Position numbers and translations under genes: made by a program
Notes under the pieces: model-generated
Database searches by the model: none
What the model saw: only the letters and a program-made list of their open reading frames with translations
Told to the model about the DNA's origin: nothing
Assembly: GCA_963678705.1 (NCBI GenBank)
Contig: OY783205.1
Location: forward strand, 6,634,001-6,698,000
Source: Panorpa germanica
Taxonomy: Eukaryota; Arthropoda; Insecta; Mecoptera; Panorpidae
Direction of reading: 5' to 3'
Length of the DNA stretch: 64,000 nucleotides
Part shown: positions 23,138 through 36,467 of the stretch, one piece after another
How the letters are laid out: each line of letters opens with the position of its first letter
Position numbering within the stretch: position 1 is the first letter of the stretch

Positions 23138-26100
23138 ATTAAAGAATTAGAATTAAAACCACATAAAGCATTTAAAGGATTAATAAGTGATAAATATTTT
23201 GTTTCAAAAAATAATGAAGATATCAATACACATTTTGAAGAAATTGGAAAACCATTAACAAACTATATAAAATTTCAAATTGAAAAATATAAATATATAA
23301 AGTTTAAACTTTCTACTTTTATTGAGTATGTAGAATTAAATCAAGATGGAGAAGAAGTAAATACACACACAAATAAATGTAGTACTGATAATATAGAAGT
23401 TTCTAGTTATGTAAAAGATATTCATAAATTGGTTAAAATTATTGAAGATATAATTGATAATAAATTTGATCAATGGACTGAAAAGAACTCTAAATATAGA
23501 TTTAAACAAGTAAAATATTCTGTTTTATTTCGAGATAAATTTCAACCAATAAAAGGTGGATCATATATTGATTTACCAAAATGGATAATAAATAAAAAAT
23601 GTTGTGTAAATGTGGAAAATATTAGAACTAGACAATTTAAGTGTGAGAAAGAAGAAGATGAAAGATGTTTTGAATATGCTTTAGAAAGTATACTAAATCC
23701 AGTAAGTAAGAATAATTGTAGACCATCAAAATATAATATAACAAGATATGAGGAATTAGAAATGGATTATCCAATTGCTATATCTCAAGACATTATTGAA
23801 AAATATGAAAAGTTTTTAAATATTTCAATTAATTTATATGAATTAATAAAAATAGAAAATGCAGAAAGGGAGGAACAAATAATATTAGGCTATAGAAGTA
23901 AAAATATTTCTAATGATAAAACACATGTTAACTTATTAGTCCTTAGTCGTATTGAACAATTGAATGAAGAAGAATGGATAAGAATTTACCATTTTGTTGG
24001 TATAAAAAATTTAAGTTGTTTATTAAAAGGTAAAATTCATCATAACAATAATCATCTTTATATTTGTAATAAATGTAGTAAGAGCTTTGAAACTATTATA
24101 CAATATAATACCCATGCAAAAATTTGTGGAATCTCCACTAGAAATATAACTATGCCAGCTGAAAAAACATACAAATTATTTTATAAATCTAATGGAGCAG
24201 AAATATATCACCCTTATTTTACAACATTAGATTTTGAATGTACATTATCTAAAGATTTTCCCTCAGATAAAATAAATAATAAAAAAATTATTTCTAAACA
24301 CATTCCAAATAGTTACTGTTTTACTACAAATGAAAAAACTATTTTGAGAAGAGAAAAAGACTCTAATATATTAATGAAAACATTTAATAGCGATTTAACA
24401 GATTTGGCAAAAAATTATTACAAAATAAAGAAAATAAATGAACCTATGAAATGGAATGAAGAAGATATAAAATTATTTGAATCACAAACAAATTGTCATA
24501 TTTGTGGTAAAGATTTTGAAGGTCTTCCTTCTAATAAAGTTTGGGATCATGATCACATAACTGGTAAATTTAGAGGTGCCGCACATAAATCTTGTAATTT
24601 AAATTTAAAATTACCCAATTTTGTACCCATTGGAATACATAATATAAAATATGATTCAAAAATATTTATTGAATGGATTTTAAAATTGAGCAAAGAAGCT
24701 GAAAATATTAAAATACTTGCTGATACAACTGAAAATTATAAATATTTATCAAAACGAGTTTTGGTAAATGAATATGAAACAAAACAAGATTCAATATATT
24801 GCTCAAATTGTAAAATATCAAAAAAAGGTGAAAACCTTTTTGAAAAATGTAATAAATGTGAAGGTATAACAAAACTTGAAGTTTGTCGAGAAAATGAAAT
24901 TAAATGTTTAAAATGTCAAAATATTTATAAAACTGCTAAGCAGCTCTACAAATCAGAAACAGAATCACTTATAGATCTCTCCGAAGGAGAATCTCTTATA
25001 AAACTCTTTGAAGGAAAATCTCTTACAGAGCTCTTTGAAGGAGAATCTCCTATAGAATGTAAAAATGATAATTGCACATATAAATGGGAAAAACTTAGAA
25101 TAACACCAAAAGGAACAATAATACAAAGTTTTATGGAAATAAGATTTATTGATACATTAGCATTTATGGGTGTTTCATTAGATAAAGCAATTAAAAATTT
25201 ATTAAACATTAACTCTGGATATTGTTATAAATGTAAGAAACAACGAGAATTAAAAAATCCTATACTGCTTTGCAAGACTCCAGAGGGTATAATAGCATAT
25301 GATGATTGTGAATATTGTAATACTAAAATTGAAAAAATATGTGATTATAGTTCTTTTAAATATTTTAATGAAAGATATAAAAATTATTCATTAGAAGGAA
25401 AAGCTTTTTTATTACAAAAAGGAGTTTATCCATATGAATGGGTTGATGATTATAAAAAGTTCGATGCATTAAATTTACCAGGTATTAAAGAATTTTATTC
25501 CAATTTAAATTGTAAAACAATAACTGAAAAACAATATAAATTTGCCAACGACTTTTGGAAACATTTTAATATTGATACTTTTGGTGAATATCATGATAGA
25601 TATTTAAGATTAGATAGTATATTATTATATGATGTATTTAATAATTTTAGAGATATGTGTTATAAGGAATATCAATTAGATCCAGTTTATTTTATAAGTG
25701 CTCCACATTTAGCTAACTCAGCTTCATTAAAATATACCAAACAAACATTAGAATTATATCAAGATCAAGAAATGTATGAATTTACTGAAAAAGGTATTCG
25801 TGGTGGAATTAGTATGATATCAAATAATTATGCTTTATCAAATAATTGTTATTTCTATGATGAAAAGTATGAAAAAGTTATCAAATTATCAAAAGAAAAA
25901 GCTGAAGAAAAGGGTATATATAATTCAAAAAAACATTTGAGTTATATAATGTATTTAGATGCTAATAATTTATATGGTTGGGCAATGTCTCAAAAACTAC
26001 CAATATCTAATCATGAATGGCTGTCAAAGGAAGATATTCAAGATTTAAAAAAAAATATAATGAGATATATATTAGATGTTAATTTAGGTATTCCCAAAGA

Positions 26101-35964: not shown

Positions 35965-36467
35965 TAGCAGTGCGTTCGAATCCCACATGTGACAAATCTT
36001 TTTTTTTTTTATTTCTCTTTCAGAGTTCTGCATATAAAAATTAATAATAGATGGTGACACTAATTAACGAAATCTCATTTGTATGGGATGATTCACGTCT
36101 TAGCTCTCAGTAGTATTGTACACTGTAATTATGGACTATATATACAAGTTTTAATTTTTCATATGTTGGGATAACTATGATATTATGGTTTTGAGTATGC
36201 GTTTTATAAGAGGTGCACATCTTATATTAGTGCAGATCAAAGTCAGTATCATAGGTAAAGACTGGTCGTATTAAATCTCAAAAGTATCTTGTTGTATTAA
36301 ATTCAAAGAAATTCTATTCAAAATTAAAAACCGAAGTAAAGACTCGACGTCTGTAAAAAGATGTAAATGTCGTGCTGGCTTTAAACTCAATAAACGAATT
36401 CTAATAAATATGTGTGTTTGTGAGTTGTAATACTTGAAAATAATTGATATAGCAACAAGTTAGTAAA
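35965..36467. other. Non-coding stretch between the metalloproteinase and the terminal zinc gene
   Basis: No open frame of note. It begins with a tRNA-like 3' half (35967-35992) and a T-run, then a degenerate repeat copy (36012-36031). Further on, a TATA-like ttttataag at about 36203 is followed about 35 bp later by tcagt, and AATAAA signals lie near 36389 and 36401. It may hold 3' ends of the two convergent flanking genes. Less repetitive and slightly less AT-rich than the genes around it. Confidence 0.5.
35967..35992 (+). ncRNA. tRNA-like 3' half (T arm and acceptor), not a full tRNA
   Basis: The stretch gtgcgttcgaatcccacatg plus tgacaaat has a B-box (gttcgaatcc), a T arm with four of five pairs and an acceptor-like tgaca, resembling a leucine tRNA 3' end. 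A run of eleven or more T follows, as at polymerase III terminators. No D arm, anticodon arm or pairing 5' acceptor is found upstream, which is the end of the metalloproteinase frame. Probably a captured fragment. Confidence 0.4.

Follow-up and report, generated by a model that had tools for sequence, protein, structure and literature searches.

A 27-bp repeat family has spread through the genes of a single Polinton in the insect Panorpa germanica

A stretch of 64,000 nucleotides from Panorpa germanica (assembly GCA_963678705.1, contig OY783205.1, positions 6,634,001 to 6,698,000 of the forward strand), here called the window and numbered from its first letter, contains a Polinton at 22488..37171 whose genes are interspersed with a short GC-rich repeat. 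The repeat is one DNA family of about two dozen copies which has spread within this one Polinton, in tandem as well as dispersed, and in both orientations. Such a spread had been proposed in a preliminary description of the window, and it is supported by the occurrence of copies in three codon phases and both orientations, by exact matches of 20 bp and by the absence of the repeat from relatives of the polymerase and the metalloproteinase; the interpretation given there is, as a whole, partly supported. The explanation that we favor, with a probability of roughly 0.57, is that a 27-bp micro-element made of two hairpins was copied many times into this Polinton by short DNA copying.

Results

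Searching the window with the 24-mer CTCCTTCRGAGCKCTCYGAAGGAG at up to 8 mismatches yielded 24 sites, all of them within 22488-37171 (31760 and 31769 overlap), and none in the other 49,329 bases, compared to a mean of 0.13 and a maximum of 2 sites in 30 simulations under a second-order Markov null. The earlier count of at least 15 places, all in the Polinton, thus holds. At up to 5 mismatches there were 12 sites in the Polinton, none outside and none in the null, and at 9 mismatches the contrast weakened (26 inside, 5 outside, null 0.87). A 17-mer matrix at a score of 14 found 30 matches inside and 2 outside, with 0.1 in the null, though its count inside the Polinton is inflated by its having been built from 21 sequences of the same copies. 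The repeated words of the Polinton interior tell the same story when held against 21 copies: of 1164 13-mers with a GC content of at least 0.4, 55 are repeated, and all 55 lie within at least two of the listed copies, as 66 of 67 repeated 12-mers lie within listed copies. Exact searches with the 24-mer in IMG/VR and in GTDB contigs, and with an 18-mer half in IMG/VR, gave no match, though scans of this kind miss diverged copies.

The copies stand out by their composition, with a GC content of 48% as against 23% in the remaining Polinton. They are spread across 11 kb, about one per 0.5 kb, and are degraded and variable, with a mean column identity of 74%. At up to 8 mismatches no copy is present in the capsid gene, ORF5, the phospholipase-like ORF or the terminal repeats. 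In 23 copies, positions 7-8 read CA 12 times, CG seven times, TA three times and TG once, and positions 17-18 read CA nine times, CG four times, TG twice and otherwise in eight cases. This pattern fits a partial decay of CpG, and the ancestor probably was CTCCTTCGGAGCGCTCCGAAGGAG.

Copies occur from the polymerase ORF to beyond the metalloproteinase gene, on the plus strand unless stated otherwise. An array in the polymerase ORF (24933..25059) comprises units at 24933, 24966, 24993 and 25020 plus one partial unit; three are in register at 24966-25043 and the extra one lies 33 bp upstream. Six tandem 27-bp units in exact register make up the array near the N-terminus of ORF2 (27224..27382), one of which, 27278, has 9 mismatches. 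Together with two units at 28346..28396, in the overlap of the zinc-ribbon ORF with the integrase ORF, which is read in another frame, these arrays confirm the tandem 27-bp units reported earlier. ORF3 has one copy at codon 3 (27701..27724, phase 0, NLFQSSPKEI) and one internally (27847..27870, phase 2, GFSFGALPSG), the latter with TGGATT repeated at a distance of 27. A copy between ORF3 and the zinc-ribbon ORF (28151..28174) has a right half, CTCT-TTC-AGGG, that looks like a left half. The ATPase-like ORF carries a copy near its N-terminus (30155..30178, RFSFGELHKRF), with AGATT repeated at a distance of 27. One copy (30998..31021) lies in the overlap of ORF7a, whose end is at 31039, with the frame of ORF7b, an open stretch that starts at 30967 and runs up to the stop at 31819; ORF7b further contains a weak copy with 8 mismatches (31253..31276) and two at its C-terminus (31760..31822), namely 31760-31783 and 31799-31822, the latter extending one base beyond the stop. 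In the protease-like ORF there are copies at 32613..32636 (ISFEALKKN) and in the C-terminal tail (33181..33204, FWSSPKEN), plus a half copy on the minus strand in a linker of variable length (32825..32841). The metalloproteinase ORF holds a degenerate half copy on the minus strand (34559..34575), which scores with the matrix as does the one at 32825-32841, and the best-preserved copy of all (35033..35056, DTPSERSEGD), and a last copy follows its stop codon (36015..36038).

As described before, the repeat is translated in different frames, and all three codon phases are used across at least seven ORFs. Phase 1 is the commonest (polymerase array, ORF2 array, ORF7b and metalloproteinase copies), phase 0 is seen at 27701 and 33181, and phase 2 at 27847, 28346/28373 (in the integrase frame), 30155 and 32613; copies 28151 and 36015 belong to no ORF. 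Exact matches between loci reach at most 20 bp, in two pairs, 28346 with 31799 and, in inverted orientation, 30155 with 33181. In the second pair the same DNA is translated as FSFGELH by one gene and as WSSPKEN by the other, a pattern for which a shared peptide does not account. The claim that the frames mostly remain unbroken is fair, with the exception that 30998-31021 and 28346-28396 sit at overlaps of differing frames. No plus-strand frame has a stop in 13 of the 24 copies, as compared to 7.6% of 12,943 other 24-mers, and of three consensus variants written as tandem arrays one is open in all six frames, which holds for 0.4% of 4000 sampled 27-mers. Direct repeats of at least 3 bp with a period of 27 flank 12 of 23 copies (31769 and 27278 were left aside), eight of them in arrays, compared to 5.2% per site by chance; outside arrays, 4 of 12 copies are so flanked.

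With regard to shape, the complete 24-bp palindromes reported at 27701-27724 and 35033-35056 turned out to have 8 and 11 of 12 Watson-Crick pairs, respectively. Perfect palindromes are absent from the 23 copies examined, and apart from 35033-35056 the pairs number 4-8. Covariation was assessed in three sets of copies: A1 with 20 of the 24 sites (without 24933, 31253, 31760 and 31769), A4 with 23 copies (A1 plus 27278, 31253 and 31760), and A5, which is A4 plus 24933. A single 12-bp hairpin failed this test, its covariation in A4 being 0.106 as against 0.142 in shuffles, with 496 of 500 shuffles as high, and A1 behaved alike. Because this test failed, we propose a double hairpin, CTCC-TTC-GGAG and CTCC-GAA-GGAG, separated by 2 nt and completed to 27 bp by an AAT spacer; its two 4-bp stems, with 3-nt loops, pair columns 1-4 with 8-11 and 14-17 with 21-24.

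For the double hairpin, covariation in the 24 copies of A5 was 0.276, compared to 0.177 +/- 0.025 in shuffles, and 0 of 500 shuffles were as high; A1 and A4 agree. In the same set, 74.0% of cells are paired (67.0 in shuffles) and 19 are altered on both sides (10.9 in shuffles). Stems altered on both sides include the left one of 27251 (TTGT-TTC-ACAA), the right one of 27305 (TTGT-AAA-ACAG) and the left one of 24933 (CTGC-TAA-GCAG). When each of 14 loci was represented by a single randomly drawn copy, the covariation was reached by 4.1% of shuffles on average and the pairing by 2.0%, and the draws at or under 5% were 150 of 200 for the double hairpin and 0 of 200 for the long palindrome. Support for the double hairpin is hence clear with all copies and, with one copy per locus, modest though persistent. 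All four pairs are formed in 18 of 46 halves, but in 3.2% of Polinton 11-mers. The Polinton interior contains 13 strong hairpins with a stem of 4 and a loop of 3, or 0.93 per kb, as against 0.26 in the GC-richer rest of the window; of the 13, 11 lie in the 23 listed copies, one is unit 24933 and one the half copy at 32828. No perfect palindrome with an arm length of at least 8, an arm GC content of at least 0.45 and a loop of at most 6 was found in the Polinton interior, in the rest of the window or in a related contig described below (L001).

Comparison with homologues showed that at two of the sites the repeat is absent from relatives. The closest relative of the polymerase, P0001 (63% identity over 590 residues), has neither the array nor the loop around it, and ten patterns of the repeat peptide matched none of 114 polymerase relatives. 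The copy at 35033 falls into a gap when the metalloproteinase is aligned with macrophage metalloelastase and collagenase 3, and the third alignment shown is split there. Among 57 candidate homologues of ORF3, none reached 0.001. The alignments comprised 9 of 114 homologues for the polymerase and 9 of 30 for the protease.

The carrier (22488..37171, without assigned strand) lies between terminal inverted repeats embedded in TA repeats and has the ends AG...CT. The inverted arms (22400-22853 and 36806-37259) are 98% complementary, and the ORFs lie nearly all on the same strand. By its long terminal inverted repeats, an integrase core (Pfam rve, 3.2e-11) and a double-jelly-roll capsid protein (DJR-like domain, 3.7e-29), it qualifies as a Polinton/Maverick; Pfam also recognizes a phospholipase A2-like protein. 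The largest ORF, which from its motifs we take to be the protein-primed polymerase, has an endonuclease VII domain as its sole Pfam domain. All 10 sequences in the polymerase alignment have this domain, and a profile of the polymerase matched only zinc fingers and one restriction endonuclease among solved structures. ORF 32413, presumably an adenovirus-type protease as judged by its motifs, has a Pfam C5 match under the cut-off, and its homologues are without names; ORF 30141, by its motifs presumably the packaging ATPase, had no Pfam match. Those relatives of the polymerase and the protease that have names come from aphids and weevils, and the capsid protein and the polymerase, used as single queries, had no relatives in IMG/VR. 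The surrounding window holds retrotransposon genes and a mariner-type transposase.

Some features of these genes deserve mention in their own right. The metalloproteinase gene (34444-35961) encodes a matrix metalloproteinase with a hemopexin repeat (Pfam Peptidase_M10 1.4e-32, Hemopexin 2.8e-8), to our knowledge an unusual cargo for a Polinton, and a literature search for matrix metalloproteinases as Polinton cargo found nothing. The first ORF (22841-23137) closes with TAG, and the polymerase ORF (23429-27217) opens downstream in the identical frame, such that the former may be either a separate small gene or part of an interrupted polymerase gene. A coding repeat of 54 nt with 76% identity (30893-31092) flanks both copy 30998 and the frame overlap of ORF7a and ORF7b.

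Another capsid gene of the double-jelly-roll type lies on the minus strand of the window (59155-60213, Pfam 1.3e-98), whose product is 27% identical to that of the Polinton and which adjoins an unnamed ORF at 60356-61093; the region of about 56000-61100 probably represents the remains of another Polinton. This second stretch has no copy of the repeat at up to 8 mismatches, and there is one match with 9 mismatches at 62531. A further relative, the IMG/VR contig L001, was found through the protease alignment. It looks complete, with 72-bp-spaced repeats in inverted orientation at its two ends (1-400 and 18440-19385) and ORFs that resemble the phospholipase-like, ATPase-like and protease-like ORFs of the Polinton. 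Apart from the terminal repeats, spaced by 72 bp, the repeated words of L001 comprise a single 33-bp repeat and some pairs, with no double-hairpin family among them.

Another observation concerns the gene starts. TAAATG is found, mostly after a T-rich run, at 10 of the 12 ATG gene starts of the Polinton (22841, 27214, 27695, 28196, 30141, 30866, 32413, 33225 and 34444 on the plus strand and 36818 on the minus strand), a count made without the ORFs for which only a TTG start is listed; the two exceptions are ORF5 and the phospholipase-like ORF. The sequence AATAAATG occurs 13 times on the plus strand and once on the minus strand of the Polinton interior, and 7 and 6 times, respectively, in the rest of the window. 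TAAATG resembles the consensus of poxvirus late promoters, and Mavirus and CroV use poxvirus-like polymerases, so the Polinton could make use of such a polymerase. Alternatively, the motif might be read as part of an AATAAA polyadenylation signal, but two of the starts lie in the terminal repeats and have no upstream gene. TAAATG was absent from the 14 L001 starts checked and from the capsid gene of the second Polinton and its neighbor.

Discussion

How might a 27-bp unit multiply within one Polinton? Polintons replicate by protein-primed strand displacement, which exposes long single strands. On these strands the hairpins of the unit could form, and a new strand might stall there and switch to another copy via a few homologous bases (AAT, GATT and similar). 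At least one unit would then be copied before the strand returned to its original template, which would either add 27 bp or overwrite the local sequence, and a transposase would not be required. Stalling and template switching would account for the 27-bp steps, both orientations, the half units and the replacement described below. Selection would remove copies within essential protein cores. At protein ends, in linkers and in loops, copies would be tolerated as nine extra codons and persist because 27 bp amount to nine codons and the unit carries unusually few stops on the coding strand, and the copies retained would decay toward the AT-rich composition of the Polinton. It may be speculated that the endonuclease VII domain of the polymerase breaks DNA at the hairpins, but the domain is also present in relatives without the repeat.

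Several observations weigh against a double-hairpin element inserted in this way, or against parts of this explanation. The structure was picked after the first model had failed and the copies are related, and for these two reasons the shuffle counts overstate the significance. Two further measures gave less support, with 54 and 92 of the 500 shuffles reaching the observed value, and sliding the model by +1 or +3 gave covariations of 0.218 and 0.233, near the 0.276 of the model itself. The column pair 6-16, which is not part of a stem, ranks first or second; the stem pairs occupy 4 of the top 5 among 210 places when the set is cut to 15 copies, and then only, with two members of the ORF2 array and two of the ORF7b end still included; in the full set of 23 copies their ranks are 2, 4, 9 and 18. 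Moreover, among the right halves of 23 copies there are 4 that form at most one of their 4 pairs, only one of eight copies went beyond z = -2 when folded as RNA, and two of the three consensus variants, as tandem arrays, have a stop in some frame of six. The protease-like ORF departs from clean insertion at one place and offers no proof of it at two others. Copy 32613 (ISFEALKKNH) aligns without a gap to residues like LKYEQLKTNH in P0115, P0116 and P0117, three of the four closer homologues that cover it; P0119 lacks three residues at the end of the copy, and the more distant P0122 and P0124 are dissimilar. Copy 33181, in the variable C-terminal tail, adds no length. The linker with half copy 32825 has 11 residues, as compared to about 5-8 in P0115-P0118 and 16 in P0120, so that its length speaks neither for nor against an insertion.

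Copy 32613 thus overwrote codons for similar residues and added no length. The clean insertion that was to be looked for by comparing the genes with their homologues is compatible with the polymerase array and the metalloproteinase copy, which are absent from relatives, and fails at 32613, such that it cannot be the whole mechanism, and a template switch or conversion is favored over a transposase. Copies appear to arrive both as 27-bp additions and as replacements, and this suggests short-tract copying.

A different view, which we think unlikely, takes the unit for a cis-acting site that serves the Polinton in replication, recombination, packaging or transcription, is under selection and partly arose in place. 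DNA uptake sequences and the homologous regions of baculoviruses would be analogues. The scatter over 11 kb at about one copy per 0.5 kb would suit such a site, as would the correlated changes in the stems, and copy 32613, which came without a change in length, is what in-place evolution would give. But the copies are degraded and variable, many of them stand in arrays, the capsid gene, ORF5, the phospholipase-like ORF and the terminal repeats do without a copy at the threshold used here, and the relative L001 has no such family. Slightly less likely still, in our view, is that a GC-rich word which arose by chance was multiplied by ordinary minisatellite slippage together with ectopic gene conversion, in which hairpins would play no part. 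Such slippage and conversion would produce the 27-bp tandem arrays and the short direct repeats at unit borders, and relatedness among the copies may inflate the shuffle-based covariation, for which one copy per locus gives modest support; against this stand the single copies dispersed in unrelated genes in both orientations, and the stems altered on both sides in 27251 (left), 27305 (right) and 24933 (left).

Selection for a peptide motif like SPSERSEG common to Polinton proteins, finally, is very hard to uphold. That phase 1 is the commonest would agree with it, but the copies occupy three phases and both orientations, 28151 lies between genes and 36015 past the metalloproteinase stop, and the pattern search of the polymerase relatives found no such peptide. 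Going beyond the copying of a double-hairpin unit within one Polinton, it is possible, though we consider it doubtful, that a double-hairpin mobile element of a kind so far known from mitochondrial DNA has colonized the protein genes of a nuclear virus-like transposon, lives on the Polinton as its parasite, moves via Polinton replication, possibly aided by the endonuclease VII domain of the polymerase, and supplies new viral coding sequence.

A Polinton with such a repeat was not found described in a search of open-access literature from which most subscription papers are missing. Rickettsia palindromic elements, to which the repeat had been likened, are about 100-150 bp long. The analogy is sound for the coding behavior, in that one DNA family sits in unrelated genes and different frames, here in three phases. 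It does not extend to the shape, since those elements are long single-hairpin palindromes, whereas in the Polinton double hairpins are better supported than one long palindrome, nor to the tandem 27-bp units, which Rickettsia elements are not known to form. Absence from homologues, another trait of the Rickettsia type, is seen in the polymerase and metalloproteinase relatives, whereas 32613 replaces sequence and 33181 adds no length. Coding palindromes are summarized for Rickettsia, Wolbachia and Methanocaldococcus, and thus for bacteria and an archaeon, whereas the carrier here is a Polinton (PMC2996958). PARCEL repeats are likewise palindromic DNA that encodes tandem repeats, some of them linked with mobile elements, but they have 75-nt units encoding a 25-residue amphipathic domain, unlike the 27-bp unit read in three frames (PMC2996958).

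With the double-hairpin elements of mitochondria the Polinton repeat shares the conserved pairing of two hairpins, under a model chosen post hoc, but it resides in a nuclear-type DNA element. The stems of the mitochondrial elements are also longer. The elements of Allomyces and Schizosaccharomyces are regarded as potentially mobile; like the Polinton units, they are tandem pairs of GC-rich hairpins scattered over a small genome. In fission yeast, the copies listed are situated between genes or within rRNA genes, whereas the Polinton copies are mostly protein-coding (PMC10085805). Yeast mitochondrial GC clusters are similar in being GC-rich palindromic units in AT-rich DNA that merge and shuffle, and for GC42 a putative target-site duplication and co-conversion tracts are described, with the mechanism unsettled; GC42 differs in being mitochondrial, in its length of 42 nt and in its target nucleotides AG, as compared to 27 bp and AAT/ATT-like borders here (PMC4478555). 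Related features in organelles are the palindromic repeats of Volvox, present in both orientations (PMC2670323), the hairpin elements of sponge mitochondria (PMC2800124) and the palindromes in mitochondria of Fusarium (PMC7218506) and cryptophytes (PMC5910586).

If the copying of a double-hairpin micro-element within this Polinton is correct, selfish coding palindromes would arise also in eukaryotic virus-like elements, beyond bacterial parasites and organelles, and the Polinton would provide a clear case of codons being added to virus-type proteins by copying at the DNA level. With about two dozen mostly genic copies in an element of 15 kb, it offers a small system in which the copying of repeats and their absorption by proteins can be tested.

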